Positions 37,772 to 63,877 of a stretch of DNA of 64,000 nucleotides are shown here, piece by piece. A program made the translations under genes and the position numbers. The stretch comes from Agromyces albus (GTDB taxonomy: Bacteria > Actinomycetota > Actinomycetes > Actinomycetales > Microbacteriaceae). The notes under the pieces are model-generated. The model did no database searches, was not told the origin of the DNA, and saw only the letters and a list, made by a program, of their open reading frames with translations. Numbering within the stretch: position 1 is the first letter of the stretch; every line of letters starts with the position of its first letter. The stretch is taken from assembly GCF_004134825.1 (NCBI RefSeq), contig NZ_SDPN01000005.1, positions 1-64,000 of the forward strand, in the 5' to 3' direction.

Positions 37772-37960
37772 CTACCCTTCGACGTCTGGGCCGCTCACCT
37801 CGACGTCGACGTAGTAGGAGATTCCGATGAATCCACCCTGCTCGGCCCAGGAACGCTTCAGCTCGTAGGTCCGCGGCACATTGCCAGCAGGCGGGGCTTG
37901 GCGGATCACGTCCTCGAACGCGTCGGCGAAGTCGGACTGTGATGATCCTCGTACCAGCAT
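37772..37960 (-). CDS. small hypothetical protein
   Basis: 62-aa acidic protein beginning MLVRGSSQSDFADAFEDVI with a C-terminal beta-like segment (GFIGISYYVDVEVSGPD). Third-position GC bias and an amphipathic N-terminal helix suggest real coding, but the ribosome-binding site is weak (TGGGAA). Its size and helix-then-strand pattern recall dodecin-like small proteins, without any diagnostic residue. It is isolated between the asparaginase terminator and the 38-40 kb operon. Confidence 0.45.
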   Translation of the reverse strand: MLVRGSSQSDFADAFEDVIRQAPPAGNVPRTYELKRSWAEQGGFIGISYYVDVEVSGPDVEG

Positions 37961-38063
37961 TGCGACTACGTTCCCAGTACGACCCGACGAGCGGCGATCC
38001 CTAGGGCGAACCTACGCCGCCCCACTCTCAGCAGGGACCCCCAGAACGTGGGTAGAGGGTCGC

Positions 38064-38957
38064 CTACGAACGCTCGACGCTGATCGAGCGCAGCTCGTAC
38101 TGCCGCACTCGCACGAACCGGGTCGCCGCGCACGTCGACAGCAGCGGTTCGGACGGGGCCTCGTCGAGCTCCACGACGACGACACCGTCGGCGCCCTCGA
38201 GTCGCACGCGCCATCCGGTGCCGGCCGCCTCCTCGGCGAGCGGCGGGAACGACTCGATCCGATCGTCGCCGAACGCCTCACGCGCATAGTGCTGCGCAGC
38301 CTGCAACGGATGCGTCAGCGAGCTGCGCCCGCGGTATCGCTCCGGCACGATGCGACCGTCGTCGAACGCGTCGGCGATCCGCACGGGGTCGCCGTCGTCG
38401 GCATACCCGTAGTAGAGCCCGTGCGGGAAGACCACCATCGTTCCGGCGAAGCGGTCGCCGCCGAGGTGGGAGCACTCCCACGTCTCCTCGGGGTGCGCCT
38501 CGGCGAGCGCGGTGACGACGCGGCGTCCGCGCACGGCGCAGCACTGGTCGTGACGGGCGTGCGTGCAGACGCAGTAGAGCGGCCGCGACGACGGGATGCC
38601 GGTGGACCCGTCGAGCGGCACCTCGAGCAGTGCCGCGGCATCCGTCACCTCTCCCCACACCACGCTCTCGTGACCCGGCCGCGAATCGACGATCGCCCAC
38701 CGCTGCGTCGACGGAGCTTCCCGGCGGCCCGTGCGACGGATGGCGAGCGGTCGCATGCCGGCGCCCTCGATGCGCCGCACGAGGGTGCGTCCGAGCGTGC
38801 GGTCGAACGGCTCGTTGAGCAGGGCATTGTGCCCCCAGCTCGCCGCGACCTCGATGAGGAACCAGCGGAGCCCGCGCGAGCCCGTGCCGACCAGCGGATC
38901 GCCTCGCTCGCGGGCGCGATCGCTGCACGGTGCCCAGTGCTCGACGGCGAGAGTCAC
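38064..38957 (-). CDS. sucrase/ferredoxin-like (thioredoxin-fold [2Fe-2S]) protein
   Basis: 297-aa protein of the Suc_Fer-like family. Conserved Cys occur in the N-terminal WAPCSDRA, in YCVCTHARHDQCCAVRG (near residues 128-144) and in WECSHLGGDRFAG (near 160). These Cys/His positions fit a thioredoxin-like ferredoxin with an Fe-S cluster, so electron transfer is the likely role. It starts at GTG 38957, which overlaps the cupin oxygenase stop (GTGA), so the two are co-translated. It is last in the three-gene unit and could re-reduce the oxygenase or a product. Confidence 0.83.
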   Translation of the reverse strand: MTLAVEHWAPCSDRARERGDPLVGTGSRGLRWFLIEVAASWGHNALLNEPFDRTLGRTLVRRIEGAGMRPLAIRRTGRREAPSTQRWAIVDSRPGHESVVWGEVTDAAALLEVPLDGSTGIPSSRPLYCVCTHARHDQCCAVRGRRVVTALAEAHPEETWECSHLGGDRFAGTMVVFPHGLYYGYADDGDPVRIADAFDDGRIVPERYRGRSSLTHPLQAAQHYAREAFGDDRIESFPPLAEEAAGTGWRVRLEGADGVVVVELDEAPSEPLLSTCAATRFVRVRQYELRSISVERS

Positions 38958-40189
38958 GCGGGCGCCACCACGAATCCCTCGCGCACGAGCCGGCGCACCA
39001 CCACCGCGGCGCTCTCGGCGTCGAGGCCGGGCAGCTCCCGCGCCGTGACGACGTCGCCCGCGGCGAGTCGGCGCACTGCCTGTTCGGCCTCGATCGGCAG
39101 CGACAACGTCTTCGTGCGCGCCACGATGCGCACCCGATCTTCGACCGTCGTGATGTGCACCGAAAGCGACTCACGCCACCGCACCGGGGTCGACGCATCC
39201 AGCGTCGCGAGCGCTTCGAGCGTCGCGAGCGGAGCGACCGGCTCGGCGCGTGTGGCGGCGTCGAAACGGCTGCTGAGCGTCGCGGTCGGCTGCGAGGCAT
39301 CCGTCTGCTGCAGTGTCTCGATGAGTGCCTGCACGGTCTGCTCGACGATCGGCGCAAGTGCCTCGGGGTCGCGCAGGTCGAGGCCGAGCGGCAGCGACGC
39401 GCGCAAGGCGGCGTTGTCGCCGACCTGGCTCAGCAGCGCATCGACGAGGTCGGCTCGGGTGTAGGCCGACATGCCCACGGTCAGGTGCACGGATGTCGAG
39501 CCGAGCGCGGTCGCCGAGTGGATCCACCCGCGCGGAAGGTACAGGGCATCGCCCGGTCGCAGCACGACGTCGATCACCGGATCGTGCGTCGCCGCGCGGG
39601 CGACGGCAGCGCGGTGCTGGTCCCACGGCTGCGAGCGCAGCGGGTCGACGAGCACCGGGGCGTGGATGCGCCAGTGCTTCTCGCCCGAGATCTGCAGCAC
39701 GAAGACGTCGTGGGTGTCGTAGTGCGGGTCGAATCCCTGCGACGACGGCGGGGTCACGTAGGCGTTCACTTGCGCCGGGTGGCCGAGGTCGTCGACGAGT
39801 TCGCGCGTGAAGTCGATGATCGGCGGCCATAACCGGTGCAGTCCCTGCAGCACGATGGTCGCGCCGGCGGCGAACTCGGCGAGCACCTTGTCGCTCGAGA
39901 CCTGGTCGGCGATCTCAGCACCGAAACCACCTGGAGCGGTGTAGGCGGATGCCGCGAGCACCGAGCCCTCGTGAGCCATACGGATGAACGGGGTGCGCAC
40001 GCCGCGCCGGGTGATGAGCTCGTCGACCGCCGCGGCTGAGAAGAGGTCGTCGAAGCCGTAGGCGAGTTCGTCGGCCGTCGAGAGGAGCGGCTCCTGGCCC
40101 CAGTACCGTTCGGCGAACTCGTCAGCCGACACCCGGATGCAGCGCGAGAGCGCGGGCCGACCTTCCGGCCCGCGCTCCGAACGGGTCAT
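38954..40189 (-). CDS. JmjC/cupin_4 Fe(II)/2-oxoglutarate oxygenase (ribosomal oxygenase-like)
   Basis: 411-aa oxygenase of the ROX group (YcfD, MINA53, NO66 relatives), which hydroxylate Arg or His side chains in proteins. The iron triad is His156, Asp158 (FDPHYDTHDVF) and His224 (RGWIHSATAL). PPSSQGFDPHYD and SGEKHWRIH are family motifs, and a dimerisation region and C-terminal winged helix (ELPGLDAESAAVVVRRLVREG) complete the ROX layout. The start ATG 40189 shares one base with the stop of the upstream repeat-peptide gene (TAATG). The order peptide-oxygenase-ferredoxin suggests the peptide is its substrate. Confidence 0.87.
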   Translation of the reverse strand: MTRSERGPEGRPALSRCIRVSADEFAERYWGQEPLLSTADELAYGFDDLFSAAAVDELITRRGVRTPFIRMAHEGSVLAASAYTAPGGFGAEIADQVSSDKVLAEFAAGATIVLQGLHRLWPPIIDFTRELVDDLGHPAQVNAYVTPPSSQGFDPHYDTHDVFVLQISGEKHWRIHAPVLVDPLRSQPWDQHRAAVARAATHDPVIDVVLRPGDALYLPRGWIHSATALGSTSVHLTVGMSAYTRADLVDALLSQVGDNAALRASLPLGLDLRDPEALAPIVEQTVQALIETLQQTDASQPTATLSSRFDAATRAEPVAPLATLEALATLDASTPVRWRESLSVHITTVEDRVRIVARTKTLSLPIEAEQAVRRLAAGDVVTARELPGLDAESAAVVVRRLVREGFVVAPA

Positions 40190-40446
40190 TACGCCGAACC
40201 GTCGGCGCCGCCGTCGTGGCCCTCGGGGTTGGCGCCGCCGTCGGCTACGCCCTCTCCCTCAGCGGCGGATCCATCGGCGCCGCCATCGTGGCCGCCCGGG
40301 TTGGCGCCGCCGTCGGCGACACCTTCGCCTTCAGCGGCGGATCCGTCAGCGGCACCATCGTGGCCACTGGGGTTTGCGCCGCCATCGGCGACGCCCTCCC
40401 CCTCAGCGCCCGGCTCGAGGGTGATGTCATCATCGTTGATCGTCAT
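40189..40446 (-). CDS. 85-aa repeat peptide, candidate substrate of the adjacent oxygenase
   Basis: A short leader MTINDDDITLEPG (residues 1-13) is followed by three nearly identical 24-residue repeats of the form AEGEGVADGGANPxGHDGxA plus DGSA, spanning 14-37, 38-61 and 62-85. The repeats differ only at the residue after NP (S, G, E) and at GAA/GGA. Each has one His in GHDG; the peptide has no Cys, Lys, Arg, aromatic residue or Met beyond the start. The composition is highly acidic and Gly/Ala-rich. ATG 40446 has GAGAGGA 6 nt upstream, better than the open frame's start at 40491. Actinobacterial genomes label similar peptides BatC. It looks like a precursor or scaffold, not an enzyme. Confidence 0.8.
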   Translation of the reverse strand: MTINDDDITLEPGAEGEGVADGGANPSGHDGAADGSAAEGEGVADGGANPGGHDGGADGSAAEGEGVADGGANPEGHDGGADGSA

Positions 40447-40555
40447 TGCATGTCCTCTCGTTGCGTCCTTGCCCAGCGTATCGAGGGGCACCGCCCGAGG
40501 AAATGGCTTGACGCCGGTCGAGCTGCACTGCGATCGACGATTTCGGGCCCGTCGC

Positions 40556-41887
40556 CTATTGGGCCATCAACCAGTCGAGGATGACCCCGTTCGTGTAGGT
40601 GGGGATCCACGAGCCGTGGTCGAAGAGCGGCGTGGTCCCCATGGGGAACGTCGTGAAGATGTGCTTGCTGTCCGTCGCGGCGGCACGATCTCGAGCTTCT
40701 GCTGCGAACGCCTCCTGATCCTCGTCGGGAGCTGTTCCGGCCCACTCGCTCCACGTCACCGGGTTGCCGACTGCTTCGAGCGCCGTGAAGATGCGGTAGT
40801 CCGACCCGGCGGCGTCGTAGGCCACGACCGAATCATCGATGGAGTGCAACGCCCAGATCGGGAAGTCGCCGAGTGCGGCCGCAGCTGCAGCCTCGTCGCC
40901 CGCGCCGCAGACGAGCAGCGCGCCCGCGAACAGATCCGAGTCGGCGGGAAGGAGTCCCCACGAGCCGTACGAGCCCATCGAGAGCCCGGTCAGATAGACA
41001 CGGTCGGGATCGATCGCCGGATTCTCCGCGATCGTCTTCTTCACCAACTCGACCACGCCCGCCTGCATCTCCGCCATCCACCACCCACCGTTGCCTGGGT
41101 CGCCAGGACCCGCCTGGGGCGAGAGCACGAAGGCAGGGTTCCGCTCTTGTCGCGCTGGATCCGCGAAGGCGACGGAGATCTGGTTTCCGGCGATCTGGCT
41201 GAAGTTGTTCGTGCCGCTCTCGCCGTAGCCGTGCAGCGTGACGACGAGCGGGTACTTCTCCCCCTCGTTCATCTCCGGGGTGAAGAAGCGGAACGGGAGG
41301 GTGGCCCCCGACGCGGCGGAGTAGGTGCCGGCGTCGTACTCGTCGACGATCAGGTTGCGGATGCCGCTGTTGGAGATCTTGCGTTCGGGATGAGCCCGCA
41401 CCGTCTGGCTCTCGCCCACGATCGTATTCACTTGCGCGACCTGGTAGGCATTCGTCAGATCGTAGAAGCGGGTGTACTCGTCGTTGTAGGTTCCGGGTGC
41501 CATCGGGTCGTTCTGATCCAGCTCGAGAATGAGGTAAGTGCCGGGTTCCGATTGCCCGTCGATGGCGATGTCAGCCGACGTATAAGCGTCGACGACGGTC
41601 CTCGTGCCGGTGAGGGGCTCCACGCCCGGACGGCTCAGGGTCACACCGACAGCAAACGAGCTCGTGTCGATCTCGGTCGAGCCGAAGTCGAGCGGGCCGC
41701 TGTACTCGATCGCGAGGCCGGTCACCTTGTAGCCGATCGGCGTGACCTCGGCGATGACGGTCGAGTCGATCGCCTTGATCTGCGGGTCTTTATCCGGTGC
41801 GGCATACGCGGTGCCTACACCGAGCGTCGTGGAGGTGAGGGCTGTGGTCGCAGCGACGGCGACCCGGAGTGTCGTGTTATTGGCCAT
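40556..41887 (-). CDS. secreted esterase with N-terminal Ig-like domain
   Basis: 443-aa exported serine esterase. Signal peptide to about residue 28 (AYAAP). Residues about 35-165 form a beta-sandwich like the esterase Ig-like N-domain (STEIDTSSFAVGVTLSRPGV). Residues about 185-443 form a PHB-depolymerase/feruloyl-esterase-like alpha/beta hydrolase with oxyanion LHGYGESGTNN, nucleophile GLSMGSYGSWG, and acid/base in HSIDDSVV and FDHGSWIPTY. Substrates are likely extracellular carboxyl esters. ATG 41887 is preferred; the frame runs open to 42394 across the neighbouring gene. Confidence 0.86.
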   Translation of the reverse strand: MANNTTLRVAVAATTALTSTTLGVGTAYAAPDKDPQIKAIDSTVIAEVTPIGYKVTGLAIEYSGPLDFGSTEIDTSSFAVGVTLSRPGVEPLTGTRTVVDAYTSADIAIDGQSEPGTYLILELDQNDPMAPGTYNDEYTRFYDLTNAYQVAQVNTIVGESQTVRAHPERKISNSGIRNLIVDEYDAGTYSAASGATLPFRFFTPEMNEGEKYPLVVTLHGYGESGTNNFSQIAGNQISVAFADPARQERNPAFVLSPQAGPGDPGNGGWWMAEMQAGVVELVKKTIAENPAIDPDRVYLTGLSMGSYGSWGLLPADSDLFAGALLVCGAGDEAAAAAALGDFPIWALHSIDDSVVAYDAAGSDYRIFTALEAVGNPVTWSEWAGTAPDEDQEAFAAEARDRAAATDSKHIFTTFPMGTTPLFDHGSWIPTYTNGVILDWLMAQ

Positions 41888-52366: not shown

Positions 52367-52445
52367 GAGTGATATGCATGACAGATAATTGTGGCGCACC
52401 GAGGATCTCGGCCTCCGCGGACATCAAATTGGAGTGGGGGCATGG
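52367..52445 (+). promoter_or_regulatory. probable promoter segment of the SIR2-ATPase operon
   Basis: 79 bp, AT-richer than flanks, between the VOC fragment and the SIR2-like gene. A GATAAT hexamer at 52384-52389 could be a -10 element. No clear -35 or operator. Low confidence. Confidence 0.3.
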
Positions 52446-54113
52446 ATGCGGCAAGCCTGGCGGGTGATTCGCGCGAATCACCCGGAGCTCATCGAGGACG
52501 TTGCAGACGGCAAGCGGTTTGTTTGGCTCGGCTCAGGAATCTCTCTCGAGCAGGTGCCCGATGTGGTGGAGCTGATTGCACGCGTTCTCCGCTTCCTGCG
52601 GGACCAAGCCGCGTCGGGCGAGGCCGATGCGGAACACCATCGAACGGCGCTGCTGGAAATCCTGGACGAGCACCTACCGACGGAACGCGCCCGGTACGAA
52701 AATGACCGAGGTAACTGGGAACCAGCGGGGCTGGATCACCTCCGTGACAAATACAGCCGGGTGCTCGGTGTCGGTGTCGAAGGGAAACCAACCGACTATC
52801 TGCTGATCGATGGAGCTGGCCTGCCAGAGCTATACGGAGACCCCGACCTTGGTCCTGGGCCAACCCATAGGCTCCTCGCGATGCTCATCTCCGAGGGCGT
52901 TGTGACCCACCTTGCATCGGGAAACTGGGACACTCTTGTCGAGAAGGCCCTCCTCGAAATCTCAGCGACCGACTCGCTTCTGGATGTGTACGTCGATGTG
53001 GACGATCCGCGCACCGCTCGAGGCCACGCCGAGATAGCCAAGTTTCACGGGTGTGCGGGCCTTGCACGAACAGATCCAGATCGATACCGCGACAAGATAA
53101 TCGCTACCACCGCCCAAATCAGCAAGCTTCATGGGGACAATTCGTATGCCCACATGACAGACCACCTCCGAGATCTCACCACCCGAATGCGCTCGCTGGT
53201 ACTGGGCCTATCGGTGCAGGACAGCGATCTGCTCGCCATCTTCAGGAGCGCGGCAAGTCGGAGTCCTTGGAAATGGGAGTCGAATCACCCCGCGTACTTG
53301 TTCGCGGAGCCATTCGTATCGCCGAGTCAGAGGGACGTCCTCGAGGTCGCGTACGGCGAGGATTTCGGCCGCGAACGTACCAGCATCGTTCGGCGATCAG
53401 CTATCGGTGCATATGCCGGTCCTGTGGTCGCGGCGATTCTGATCGAAGTGCTCGCCGCGAAGCTTGGGGTCGCGATTCAACGCCATCAAGGGCTGCCAGG
53501 TGGCTTCGAATCGCAACTCAAGCTCGGAATTCGTCGCTTTGTCTTGCGGGTAGTTGCGGCATTCGGTGGAGACGAAGGATCCCTGGCCGACTTCCTTTTG
53601 ACCGGATACTCGGACTTCCTACGCACTTACCTTGGGTCAACGGCTGTCGGCGAAGCGAGTTACCTTCCGTTCGCGCGCGGGACGACGAACACGCTTGCGA
53701 CAGACATCTCGGTGATCGGTATGGGTATCGACCGGCTCGCCATCGCGATTGGATTGCTTGGATTCGGCGAGGATCGGGGACGGTGGCGCGCCGCCCTCGT
53801 GGACGAACAGAAGGGTAGCCGCATTATGGTGTCGCGTACGAGAAACGCGACGGGTCCAACGTTGGTTGTGGTGCGCGGCGCTCGGGAGGCTGTTGCCACG
53901 ATGACTAGCGACGACTGGGTCAGCGGTCACGGCAACATGGTTCTGCTGCAAATGGAGCTCGGTGGGGTGTCGTCGACCCGCTCACCCGGGGGCAGAATCG
54001 GGCGAGGAAGGGGTGCAAGATCGCGTCGTCAATTGATGTGGGACGATATCTCCGACTCGGTCCACAGCCTGGAGGAGCTAATGGTTCGATTTGAGACTGG
54101 AGTCGCGCTGTGA
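52446..54113 (+). CDS. SIR2-like effector of a Lamassu-type defence operon
   Basis: 555-aa protein with an N-terminal SIR2-like NAD-binding domain: the GAG-S motif as WLGSGIS (Gly29-Ser33), the T-N-x-D equivalent SGNWD (Asn160, Asp162), the KxHG equivalent AKFHG (His201) and the C-terminal Rossmann strand LVLGLSVQDSDLL. Such domains in phage defence hydrolyse NAD. The rest (about 290-555) is helical with no family I recognise. ATG 52446 is preferred; a TTG frame extends to 52389. More A/T third positions than in neighbours suggest transfer. Its stop overlaps the next gene (GTGA). Position and partners fit LmuA. Confidence 0.78.
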   Translation: MRQAWRVIRANHPELIEDVADGKRFVWLGSGISLEQVPDVVELIARVLRFLRDQAASGEADAEHHRTALLEILDEHLPTERARYENDRGNWEPAGLDHLRDKYSRVLGVGVEGKPTDYLLIDGAGLPELYGDPDLGPGPTHRLLAMLISEGVVTHLASGNWDTLVEKALLEISATDSLLDVYVDVDDPRTARGHAEIAKFHGCAGLARTDPDRYRDKIIATTAQISKLHGDNSYAHMTDHLRDLTTRMRSLVLGLSVQDSDLLAIFRSAASRSPWKWESNHPAYLFAEPFVSPSQRDVLEVAYGEDFGRERTSIVRRSAIGAYAGPVVAAILIEVLAAKLGVAIQRHQGLPGGFESQLKLGIRRFVLRVVAAFGGDEGSLADFLLTGYSDFLRTYLGSTAVGEASYLPFARGTTNTLATDISVIGMGIDRLAIAIGLLGFGEDRGRWRAALVDEQKGSRIMVSRTRNATGPTLVVVRGAREAVATMTSDDWVSGHGNMVLLQMELGGVSSTRSPGGRIGRGRGARSRRQLMWDDISDSVHSLEELMVRFETGVAL

Positions 54114-54691
54114 CACGGCCCTCGACTGCGGACGCACTCAGATCAGAAGCGGCCGACTTGCTCACGGAGAACGGGTATATCGAGGTGTCCTCGCCAATCA
54201 CCATCGGCGACATCCAGCTTGAGGTACCGGGGCTCTGGGAAGGCCCGCCGGACAGTCTGGACCTATCAGTGATAGCGGATCGACCCGCTTCACGGGAAGC
54301 CGCGTTGCGGCTCTTCTGGCTCGTGCAACGGCTGGTCCGCGCGTTGGACGCCGCGGGTTCACGCCGGACGATGACTGTCATCTTGGTCGGGTTCCAATCA
54401 TCTCCTCAGGGCATGGGCGAACTCTTAGAGCTTGCGCGCGTGCTGGTAGTTGACGGCTCGCTGCCAACCGAACGAATGTTAGGCCCCCTCCTGCGTCTGC
54501 GTCTGCCGAGTACCGCCACAGCACAACTGGATGGCATCGCGGAGGTCGCTGAGGCGATCAGCAAGAAGCGCGCTGCCCGCGAACTTCATAGGCTCGTCCA
54601 GGCGGCGAGCGCGGGCGCAACCGTGGTCAGCGACCGGTACAAGGCGTGGATCGATGAGTCGTTCGCAAGTCCTCGGAGCACAGATGCCTGA
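54110..54691 (+). CDS. small middle protein, LmuC-like by position
   Basis: 193-aa mixed alpha/beta protein with no motif I recognise. The N-terminal half is strand-rich (IEVSSPITIGDIQLEVPGLW), followed by helices (ALRLFWLVQRLVRALDAAG, LLELARVLVV, IAEVAEAISKKRAARELHRL). In Lamassu operons a protein of this size lies between effector and SMC-like ATPase and bridges them. Starts at GTG 54110 in a GTGA overlap; its end overlaps the ATPase start by 8 bp. The assignment rests on size, position and coupling, not on sequence similarity I can see. Confidence 0.65.
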   Translation: MTRPSTADALRSEAADLLTENGYIEVSSPITIGDIQLEVPGLWEGPPDSLDLSVIADRPASREAALRLFWLVQRLVRALDAAGSRRTMTVILVGFQSSPQGMGELLELARVLVVDGSLPTERMLGPLLRLRLPSTATAQLDGIAEVAEAISKKRAARELHRLVQAASAGATVVSDRYKAWIDESFASPRSTDA

Positions 54692-57089
54692 GCCCCGCCT
54701 TCAGGAGATAGTCGTCGAGAACTTCCGTAGCATTTCGGGGAAGTGTGTGATTCCGTTAGACGGTTCCATCACTCTTATCCATGGCGCGAACGGGGCAGGA
54801 AAGACCAGCCTTCTCAGCGCGATTGAGCTTGGTGCAACGGGCCGTGTTGGGTTCCTCGACGAACAGATCGGGGATGCACGTGCGCTTCTGCGCAATCATG
54901 ACTACCCGCTCGGTCGAGTTCGATTATCTATCGCTGACGGAGGCACGGGCAGCCGGGTAGGAGCGTTCGAGCTGAATGCCGACCAGGTATCTGGCGAAGC
55001 AGCACTGAACCCAGCGGAGCAGGTGTACTTCTTGGAGCGCAGCTTCCTGCCCCAGACTGCGTTGGGGCGGCTGCTGGAGTCTTATACGGAGACGGGCAAA
55101 CAGGTAGATACCGCGCTCGTGCGGTTTGTGAAGTCACTTGTGGGTCTCGATGATCTGGACGCGCTGATCGATGGACTCCACGCGTCGGGCGATTTGAGGA
55201 GAAGCCGAAAGGCCGTTCCCGCATGGGCTCGCACGTCGGAGGAGGTCGAGTCCATCCAACGAAGGCGACGTGAGATTGCGGCCGAACTGGATGGCGCAAG
55301 GGCTCGCCTAAAGGCTGCATTCGACACGCTCCAGGGCCTCATGGAGACGCCAGGGAGCGTGAAGGTCGAAGAGCTGCTGAGAATCGCGGTCGAGCGTGGG
55401 CGTGACTCCGAGAGTAGCCGGGCTGACCTGGCTGAGCTGGAGGAGCTCCAAGCCAAAGTAGACGCCATTGCTAACTTGAGCCGTCAGCTTGAATCTTCCG
55501 AATCGACCGTGAGCGGCCAGCTTGATGTGACACGGGCTGAGGAGGCTCAGTCAGCGTATCGTGCGTGGGAGGAGGGTCCCGGAGCCGCAGCGTTGGCTGA
55601 ACTCAATCAGATTCGTCAAGATTCGCTGCGCCTTCCACTCGTTCGGATGTCACAAGTGGGTGAGGCTTACAAGGAGAGCATCGAAATTGCTGCCGAGGCC
55701 TCGCGTCAACATTCTGAAGCCGTCGCCGCCGACCAGGCCAGGGCTGAGAAAATCGACACCTTGGACCGTCGGATCGAAGTGCTCGAGCAGGAGATTGCGG
55801 AGACTGAGAAGCGCGCGAGGTCGGTCGACGTGCCTACGGACGTGCGGGTACTGATTGAGATTCTTCAGCTGGCGGTTCCACTGGTGGATTCTGACCGCTG
55901 CCCTTTGTGCGACCAGAAGTTCGCAGGTGCCGGTACTCTCAGCGACCATCTCGCGGCAAAGCTCGGCCGGCTGAGCGCCGGCTCGCAGGAGCTCCTTCTG
56001 ATCGAGCGGGAGTTGAATTCGCTTCGCTCAGACCACCAGACTGCGGTGAAGCAGGTGATCCTCTTCAAGAGTCTGCCTCCGGTTGCCGCTGGTAGTCCGC
56101 TCGACAAGTCGATTCGCAGTCTCAACTCCTTGGGCGATTCCGTCGGCCAAGGTGCTCGCCTGCTGCGGGACGTCCAGTCGACGCAGGCCAGAAGTGCCGA
56201 GCTTGCTGCACGCGAGGCCCAGCGCTTGGTAGTGCGGGAGCGTGTCACGCAGGTATGCGAAGCGTTGGGGCTCTCGACGGACGATGTACCGGGTCAAGCC
56301 CCCGATGAAACGCTCGGGCGTGAGATTTCCGCGCGCATTCAGAAGGTTCGCTACGCGGACATCCAACGAGGCCGTGAACGCGAGGCACGCGAGGCCGTCG
56401 AGGATTCGCACCGTGACGTAGAACGCTTGGAGCGGGCGTCCCGAGAAGCAGAACTCGCGGTCTCCAGAGTCCGATCGCAACTGTCGACAGCGGAGTCACG
56501 AATGGCGAGCGCGCGTGAGCTTCTTCAAGTCTCCGAGCAGACCCGTTCCACGCTCATAAACCAGGTATTTGATCAATCGCTCAACTCCTTGTGGGCTCAA
56601 CTCTTCGGTCGCTTTGCGCCGTCCGAGAAGTTCACTCCGCGTTTTGTGAAACAGACATCTGCCAGCCGTTCAGTCGACGTGCGGCTCGAGACCGCGCTTC
56701 CCGACGGGAGAACGTCGGGAAGTCCCGGCGCAATGCTTAGCTACGGGAACACGAACTCTGCGGCGTTGGCGCTGTTCATGGCATTACACCTCTCCGCGCC
56801 TCCCCAGCTTCCATGGCTCATCTTCGATGACCCCGTTCAGTCGATGGATGAGATCCACGTGGCGAACTTCGCAGCGATCGTGCGACAACTTGCCTTCGTG
56901 CATGAACGCCAGGTCGTGATTGCAATCCATCAGCCGGAACTGTTTGACTACCTCGCTCTTGAGTTGGCGCCGAGCACTAGCGACCATTCGCTGGTGCGGG
57001 CAACGTTGGATCGTGGCGCTGGGACGACGAGCGCGCGAATTGAGCGGATCGACTATGCGCCTGAGTCGGTACTGCATGGCGCTCTTTGA
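54684..57089 (+). CDS. Rad50/SMC-like ATPase with zinc hook (LmuB-like)
   Basis: 801-aa AAA/ABC-type ATPase. Walker A GANGAGKTS (Gly34-Thr41), a long coiled coil (about 180-400), a CPLC zinc-hook at Cys406-Cys409 exactly mid-protein, the returning coiled coil (about 420-650), a signature region SYGNTNSAALALFMAL, Walker B LIFDDP with Asp715-Asp716, and the H-loop AIHQPE. This is Rad50/SbcC architecture at reduced length and fits LmuB, which senses abnormal DNA ends and activates the effector. CGGAG precedes ATG 54684. It closes the three-gene operon. Confidence 0.85.
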   Translation: MPEPRLQEIVVENFRSISGKCVIPLDGSITLIHGANGAGKTSLLSAIELGATGRVGFLDEQIGDARALLRNHDYPLGRVRLSIADGGTGSRVGAFELNADQVSGEAALNPAEQVYFLERSFLPQTALGRLLESYTETGKQVDTALVRFVKSLVGLDDLDALIDGLHASGDLRRSRKAVPAWARTSEEVESIQRRRREIAAELDGARARLKAAFDTLQGLMETPGSVKVEELLRIAVERGRDSESSRADLAELEELQAKVDAIANLSRQLESSESTVSGQLDVTRAEEAQSAYRAWEEGPGAAALAELNQIRQDSLRLPLVRMSQVGEAYKESIEIAAEASRQHSEAVAADQARAEKIDTLDRRIEVLEQEIAETEKRARSVDVPTDVRVLIEILQLAVPLVDSDRCPLCDQKFAGAGTLSDHLAAKLGRLSAGSQELLLIERELNSLRSDHQTAVKQVILFKSLPPVAAGSPLDKSIRSLNSLGDSVGQGARLLRDVQSTQARSAELAAREAQRLVVRERVTQVCEALGLSTDDVPGQAPDETLGREISARIQKVRYADIQRGREREAREAVEDSHRDVERLERASREAELAVSRVRSQLSTAESRMASARELLQVSEQTRSTLINQVFDQSLNSLWAQLFGRFAPSEKFTPRFVKQTSASRSVDVRLETALPDGRTSGSPGAMLSYGNTNSAALALFMALHLSAPPQLPWLIFDDPVQSMDEIHVANFAAIVRQLAFVHERQVVIAIHQPELFDYLALELAPSTSDHSLVRATLDRGAGTTSARIERIDYAPESVLHGAL

Positions 57090-63737: not shown

Positions 63738-63877
63738 GTGGTTTCGATACGCGTCCGGCTTCGCGCGGGCGCTACTCAACCCAAGGGTTTCGATACGCGT
63801 CCGGCTTCGCGCGGGCGCTACTCAACCCAAGGGTTTCGATACGCGTCCGGCTGCGCCGGGCGCTACTCAACCACCGG
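63738..63877. repeat. three tandem copies of the dispersed palindromic repeat
   Basis: Copies at about 63738-63782, 63786-63827 and 63831-63877, joined by AAG. The first two are identical from TTTCGATACGCGTCCGG to the end; the third has CTGCGCCGGGCG instead of CTTCGCGCGGGCG. All have the same orientation as copy 1. Confidence 0.9.

Follow-up and report, generated by a model that had tools for sequence, protein, structure and literature searches.

A three-gene locus in Agromyces albus

In the window, by which we mean the whole 64,000-nt stretch of Agromyces albus DNA analyzed here (contig NZ_SDPN01000005.1), three overlapping genes on the minus strand encode a short acidic repeat peptide, a JmjC-type oxygenase and a Suc_Fer-like protein. 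These genes belong to a conserved, phylum-wide cassette, and we moderately favor the reading that it resembles the gene sets of ribosomally synthesized and post-translationally modified peptides (RiPPs), with Asp residues of the repeats as the probable sites of oxidation. The features of the locus are as follows.

40453..40459, minus strand: likely ribosome-binding site GAGAGGA, 6 nt 5' of the peptide ATG, by reading of the sequence
40189..40446, minus strand: Asp/Gly/Ala-rich repeat peptide gene, putative precursor of 85 aa, with counterparts in the same slot at 147 of 156 core loci (defined below) and purifying selection
40408..40446, minus strand: leader-like N-terminus MTINDDDITLEPG, whose INDDDIT part is retained in looser form phylum-wide
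40336..40407, minus strand: repeat 1, AEGEGVADGGANPSGHDGAADGSA, read from the sequence
40264..40335, minus strand: repeat 2, AEGEGVADGGANPGGHDGGADGSA, read likewise
40192..40263, minus strand: repeat 3, AEGEGVADGGANPEGHDGGADGSA, read likewise
38954..40189, minus strand: gene for a ROX-type JmjC/PF08007 2-oxoglutarate (2OG) oxygenase of 411 aa, with a C-terminal winged-helix-like region at ~336-403
38064..38957, minus strand: third gene, for a Suc_Fer-like/PF06999 protein of 297 aa, with a thioredoxin-like ferredoxin domain at ~125-211 and a cystatin-like C-terminal domain

The positions and common strand of the three genes were confirmed, as were the overlaps pointed out in the initial annotation: the peptide and oxygenase genes share 1 base (TAATG), and the oxygenase and third genes share 4 (GTGA). 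The products had been taken from this to be made in a fixed ratio, which such overlaps do not imply; overlapping stops and starts suggest translational coupling only. In Pfam, the oxygenase matched PF08007 JmjC_2 (3.3e-31) and the third protein PF06999 Suc_Fer-like (9.8e-16), while the peptide had no match in Pfam or NCBIfam. None of the three proteins reached the NCBIfam cut-off, the oxygenase having one weak match below it.

The peptide has the architecture first described, with the 13 residues of MTINDDDITLEPG followed by three repeats of 24 residues to give 85 residues, and the repeat DNA is itself a tandem array (72-bp unit, 2.9 copies). The additional claim that, apart from His, the repeats carry no nucleophilic or aromatic side chain held in part: the peptide is devoid of Cys, Lys, Arg, Tyr, Trp and Phe, but Ser is present in every repeat and the peptide contains 12 Asp and 8 Glu. 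Comparison with six relatives gave dN values of 0.011-0.067 against dS values of 0.08-0.99, indicating that the peptide is under purifying selection as a protein. Seven peptides of different types were searched against Pfam with no match; one of them, a pure GADGG array, gave weak low-complexity NCBIfam matches to Ser-Asp adhesins.

Conservation of the cassette across the phylum

In a close-relative sample of 60 genomes, 37 from the same genus (source genome included) and 23 from outside it, the oxygenase was found in 15, and an acidic repeat peptide preceded it at all 15 loci. Within the genus, 10 genomes carry all three genes and the other 27 carry none, although any p-value would be too optimistic because these genomes are related. 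Of the 23 genomes outside the genus, 8 have the third protein, three of them (G046, G052 and G058) having no oxygenase match, and the window peptide as a query matched in only one of the 23 because the repeats differ.

For the wider survey, 207 oxygenase loci were collected (handles L), of which 197 are unique. They comprise 80 named loci, the top-ranking 80 among at least 554 relatives, spanning Agromyces, Herbiconiux, Cellulomonas, Curtobacterium, Subtercola, Rhodococcus, Gordonia, Mycobacterium and others; 30 loci from a class-wide search and 80 more of its places chosen by hand; and the 15 loci of the close-relative sample with two that repeat the window's own locus. L004 and L010, both from same-genus genomes, coincide with the named loci L024 (Agromyces sp. 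Root81) and L029 (Agromyces terreus), respectively, which places the window in Agromyces by its relatives as well. We defined as core the 156 loci scoring at least 290 bits against the first oxygenase profile, as the slot the region from -260 to +60 nt relative to the oxygenase start, and as an Asp-rich peptide one of 35-250 aa with at least 12% D, at most 4% K+R and at most 6% CFWYL; rule, slot and core line were all fixed after the peptides had been seen. A peptide passing the rule occupied the slot at 147 of the 156 core loci, against 2 outside the slot in 2,313,714 strand-bases over all 197 unique loci, and chance adjacency is excluded. At eight of the nine core loci failing the rule the peptide was visible by eye: L009, L010 (both under a relaxed rule), L025 (cut by a contig end), L049 (partly masked), L098, L118, L141 and L161, the last with the peptide 163 nt away from the oxygenase. 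Among the 41 lower-scoring loci, five pass the rule.

This adjacency and the co-occurrence support the initial view that the two genes look like a precursor and its modifying enzyme. The enzyme has a ROX fold, and one might suppose an ordinary ribosomal oxygenase lying beside an unrelated low-complexity gene; the adjacency (147 of 156, against 2 chance matches in 2.31 Mb) and the all-or-none presence of the three genes within the genus leave that explanation hardly any probability, and a ribosomal protein is an unlikely substrate of the core oxygenases given their peptide partner. At larger distances, a class-wide oxygenase profile matched 122 of 394 genomes at 1e-30, distant relatives without the third gene included, and in a phylum-wide draw 37 of 296 genomes matched at 1e-60, of which 26 belong to other classes. 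Loci were fetched from 20 of these 26, and 19 of the 20 contain an Asp-rich peptide, the remaining one (L249) starting at a contig end.

The conserved unit has few members. Crude gene calls over flanks of ~4 kb at 78 named loci placed an oxygenase cluster at 76 and a third-gene cluster at 50, the latter figure being lower than what a profile search finds, and further clusters, the largest of which were not annotated one by one, cover at most 7 loci each. Since no further family occurs at more than 7 of the 78, a peptidase or exporter is not part of the unit, in agreement with the absence of such a neighbor remarked on for the window.

Within the peptides, the N-terminus and the repeats differ in their constancy. 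The acidic leader recurs as a loose pattern (L/I/V/M, a free residue, three mostly acidic residues, then I/L/M/V) that 121 of 147 core peptides match, L145 at the least by chance, and a leader of the LTDEDITT kind is present in all 19 other-class peptides. By repeat type, the 147 core peptides divide into 118 with HDGG, 15 with DGGAD without HDGG, 10 with D[GAST][TS]D only and 4 others, and cores of at least three types occur; the other-class cores include DADGTDADGTD, DASDADAADAD and DTDTTDTDDDTTD. In a quick tree of 81 oxygenases, ten members accompanied by DGTD- or SDPAG-type peptides form one supported clade (SH-aLRT, a likelihood-ratio branch support, 98), and on this tree the repeat type must have changed at least 15 times and third-gene presence at least 9 times. 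The steadier leader and changeable core make a pattern as in RiPP precursors, and the locus shows two traits of a RiPP system, an encoded short precursor beside a putative modifying enzyme and a leader and core that evolve separately. Among individual peptides, the core of L238 consists of repeats ADGTDQGVxGGTYGPRD, with Tyr and Arg inside the repeat, and the L150 and L151 peptides share a C-terminal part around GADL.EDQ and EPGA.

The third gene follows downstream in the same orientation at 135 of the 156 core loci (12, 97, 17 and 9 across four score bands). Among the 20 other-class loci it is clear at 18, with a 22-bit match only at L241, and near L238 it was not found in the fetched stretch; at L150 and L151 it is not adjacent and is located elsewhere in both genomes. 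Its product has the predicted thioredoxin-like ferredoxin fold of the Apd1/Aim32 type, for which PMC8482512 gives the ligand motif CX8C-Xn-HX3H. The second His of this motif is replaced in the third proteins, where we found HX3D in 130 of 139 rows, HX3C in 2 and gaps in 7.

Candidate target residue and mechanism

The predicted JmjC fold of the oxygenase carries HxD...H and a 2OG lysine, as in the ROX family. The intact triad noted in the window is general, as triad and lysine are present in 156 of 156 core enzymes, and we take these residues to be the iron and 2OG ligands. To map the pocket, we aligned the enzymes to NO66 with a single offset (181), which correctly places Asn326, Tyr328 and Ser421. 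The Tyr328 equivalent is retained in the core enzymes, whereas the equivalent of Ser421 (Ser257 in MINA53), described in the available accounts of NO66 and MINA53 as forming a hydrogen bond to the substrate His, has been replaced by Gly in all 156, so that the serine holding the His in those two enzymes is lacking. Core enzymes differ from NO66 also in Arg65 and Arg119, both invariant in 156 of 156, where the NO66 alignment shows a gap and Ala.

These differences bear on the proposal in the initial annotation that His of the repeats is hydroxylated. His proved nearly constant in the HDGG clade, where 272 of 275 units (fixed-pattern HDGG-type units from 96 loci) contain it; the fixed pattern imposes Asp and most Gly positions, and therefore only the free positions are informative. 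The residue is not general, as 15 of 147 core peptides lack it and so do, in the stretches compared, 15 of 19 other-class peptides. His as a universal target was accordingly rejected. It is quite unlikely that the enzyme is nevertheless an NO66/MINA53-like histidyl hydroxylase oxidizing the GHDGG His, with changed specificity or loss of activity in lineages without His: its closest solved relatives are His hydroxylases, the His is nearly constant in the clade and the Tyr328 equivalent is kept, but the enzymes beside the 15 His-less core peptides retain the full active site, the His-bonding serine is replaced throughout, and one repeat at L003, a locus with a 92% identical oxygenase, carries Asn in place of His.

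Among the alternatives named at the outset, His or Asp/Asn, the comparison favors Asp. Ala, Asp, Gly and Thr each occur in all 147 whole core peptides, and Asp is singled out by the make-up of certain arrays: only Gly, Ala and Asp at L147, mostly Asp and Thr at L237, and mostly Asp, Ala and Ser at L240. In an alignment of 96 peptides built without a motif filter, the 11 Asp-consensus columns hold 914 D in 1056 cells, with 5 E and 3 N, the remaining cells being mainly G, A, S and gaps. Past residue 20, the stretches compared in the 19 other-class peptides contain 285 D and 11 E. Glu is present in HDGG peptides, mostly at a separate position of its own, and Asp residues are most often spaced by 4 in HDGG and DGGAD peptides and by 3 or 2 in those of the DGTD type. 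With moderate confidence, we consider Asp oxidation the best-supported chemistry.

Two further explanations have to be weighed here. First, the peptide may not be a substrate, and may instead serve the oxygenase or ferredoxin as acidic partner, chaperone or regulator, or bind metal in unmodified form. Asp-rich arrays nearly devoid of hydrophobic residues could bind metal ions unmodified, and no maturation protease recurs in the flanks. This explanation is unlikely, since a leader that stays constant while the core changes is typical of modified precursors, Glu seldom substitutes for Asp although plain acidity would permit it, and more distant PF08007 relatives are likewise preceded by short Asp-containing peptides of very different sequence. 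Second, the oxygenase may act on another residue or on the backbone, for example by Gly alpha-hydroxylation leading to cleavage, which would supply the missing maturation step. Most repeats are rich in Gly and Ala and no nearby protease recurs, but the L237 and L240 arrays are poor in Gly, which shows that Gly is not common to all arrays, and we give this explanation a very low probability.

For the preferred reading, we infer the following scheme. The small gene would encode a precursor in which core repeats, arranged in tandem, follow a short acidic leader. This leader would be bound by the JmjC enzyme, a bacterial 2OG/Fe(II) oxygenase of ROX fold, perhaps through the enzyme's C-terminal winged-helix domain, and the enzyme would oxidize the repeats at several Asp, with beta-hydroxylation as the likeliest reaction. 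In the structural model, the C-terminal region contains strands 345-349, 352-356 and 361-365, helices 366-376 and 391-403 and a 3-residue helix turn at 383-385; in this strand-helix order it perhaps resembles a RiPP recognition element (RRE) and may be a putative leader binder, while no RRE-type Pfam match was obtained for the oxygenase. The third protein, a putative variant of thioredoxin-like [2Fe-2S] ferredoxins, would serve as electron carrier in most lineages, some being able to do without it. The resulting product would be a short peptide with multiple hydroxyaspartates, possibly, as a guess, for binding iron or another hard metal inside the cell. Taken together, a RiPP-like cassette with leader-guided Asp oxidation, a ferredoxin-type helper and a multi-hydroxyaspartate product is the reading toward which we lean. 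The broader proposal of a phylum-wide leader-guided multi-core class, in which a ROX-fold JmjC enzyme makes a poly-beta-hydroxyaspartate metal binder with a Cys2-His-Asp-type ferredoxin as redox partner, is tentative and rather doubtful as a whole.

Several observations weigh against the leader-guided Asp oxidation reading. The loose leader pattern is missed in 26 of 147 core peptides, many of which start their repeats soon after the N-terminus. No peptide was seen before the oxygenase at L100, and at L150 and L151 the DGG repeats are lost while the oxygenase is kept. Within the clade to which the window belongs, His (272 of 275 units) almost matches Asp in constancy. The lack of a peptidase or exporter in the unit is unusual for a RiPP; genes for leader removal or export are usual beside RiPP precursors, though not required, and could act from elsewhere. 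The third gene was not found downstream at 21 of 156 core loci (some flanks are cut, e.g. at L098), and in 3 of 60 relatives (G046, G052 and G058) it is present although the oxygenase is not. When 17 of those 21 genomes were searched (L070, L081, L098 and L139 being left out), the third gene was elsewhere in 8 and no match at 1e-20 was present in 9; because of these 9, the redox support suggested for the third protein is plausible but unproved. Asp could also be the working residue of the peptide instead of the oxidized one, and we came across no mass spectrum for a peptide of this kind.

Bufferins, metallophore RiPPs made by multinuclear non-heme iron-dependent oxidative enzymes (MNIOs), involve an enzyme class and residues other than those here; common to both is the notion that a ribosomal peptide, once oxidized, binds metal, the metal role here being a guess. 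From the PF08007 ribosomal oxygenases NO66 and MINA53 (acting on His) and YcfD (on Arg), the window-type enzymes differ by the adjacent repeat-peptide gene. The canucin hydroxylase CanE is similar as a 2OG/Fe enzyme that, according to the passages on it in PMC9266682, beta-hydroxylates Asp14 of the RiPP precursor and acts on the linear peptide; it differs, in a comparison by description and not by sequence, in modifying one C-terminal Asp within a lasso cluster, while the present cassette has no cyclase and its tandem repeats contain many Asp. PbsQ, a cupin-like enzyme related to the JmjC protein BpmG and described in the corresponding passages of PMC12257519 as hydroxylating ornithine, is likewise a JmjC/cupin-type hydroxylase within a RiPP cluster (biphenomycin-like RiPPs), but these enzymes work alongside MNIO and radical SAM enzymes on FRF-type cores. 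Bregman et al. 2025 (PMC12710340) report PF08007 JmjC proteins with a strand-helix RRE-like domain and bacterial homologues in RiPP-like contexts; they are given two sentences, and the section concerned mentions neither a precursor sequence nor a repeat family, a third gene or Asp.

Published work covers each element singly: RiPPs as such, the hydroxylation of Asp in a RiPP precursor, and the occurrence of JmjC enzymes in RiPP contexts. In the open-access literature, subscription papers being mostly outside this scope, we found no description of tandem Asp repeats with a JmjC enzyme and a ferredoxin-like partner, and motif strings returned no paper there. If the proposed scheme is true, it would provide a natural substrate for a large set of bacterial PF08007 enzymes, extend ROX-fold chemistry beyond ribosomal proteins to dedicated repeat peptides, and offer a candidate partner for bacterial sucrase/ferredoxin-like proteins.

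Distant relatives, upstream regions and other features of the window

At the 41 loci scoring 100-290 bits, no third gene was found on the same strand, L208 and L210 having one on the opposite strand. Many of these loci are preceded by short peptides, e.g. one ending GGDSDGTDSSSDFI. At L171, L175-L177, L179, L180, L182-L184, L187, L188 and L202, distant PF08007 oxygenases follow a peptide of 35-38 aa of the kind ...VTSRDxTAGGDSDGTDSSSDFI, with no third gene nearby; these peptides are a candidate second precursor family. A further short peptide type lies upstream of the PF08007 enzymes at L194-L200, e.g. ...RSRGEQPSDGGGTGRSDLNDN or ...RAEQESDVSGGRSDGND. A 48-aa peptide annotated as a hypothetical protein precedes the homologue on a Streptomyces clavuligerus megaplasmid, and a Pseudanabaena plasmid homologue is near a lanthipeptide synthetase and a nitrile hydratase leader peptide (NHLP) secretion gene. 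There are hints in these sequences of a wider set of peptide-acting PF08007 enzymes. Plasmid carriage of the cassette itself was rejected, the best plasmid matches being just 33% identical; the distant plasmid-borne homologues with a listed annotation are named 'cupin' or 'cupin domain-containing protein'.

Within 37900-40750 of the window, no promoter- or terminator-like site was found by consensus. Upstream of the peptide gene, the same-genus loci L001, L002, L004-L006, L022 and L023 have a common block, roughly GTCAACCCGTTCCG ... CCCTCGATACGCTGAG, which is weaker in L001 and L002 and is possibly a promoter of a non-sigma70 type. When 146 upstream regions were scanned with the consensus sequences of nine regulator boxes, with one mononucleotide shuffle per region as control, there was no clear excess over shuffles; a Zur-like box with at most 5 mismatches of 15 was present in 14 regions versus 6 shuffled ones.

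Elsewhere in the window, the plus strand at 52389-57089 carries two genes, one for a SIR2-like protein (PF13289, 1.7e-8) and, after it, one for an SMC/RecF-like ATPase that has a zinc-hook-like CPLC and whose best PADLOC match is LmuB (4.5e-33). The GC content of this region is 0.60-0.63 versus about 0.68. The two genes are likely a defence gene pair, and perhaps a Lamassu-like variant. Finally, a tandem array with a 46-bp unit in 2.9 copies (97% match) is located at 63740-63872.

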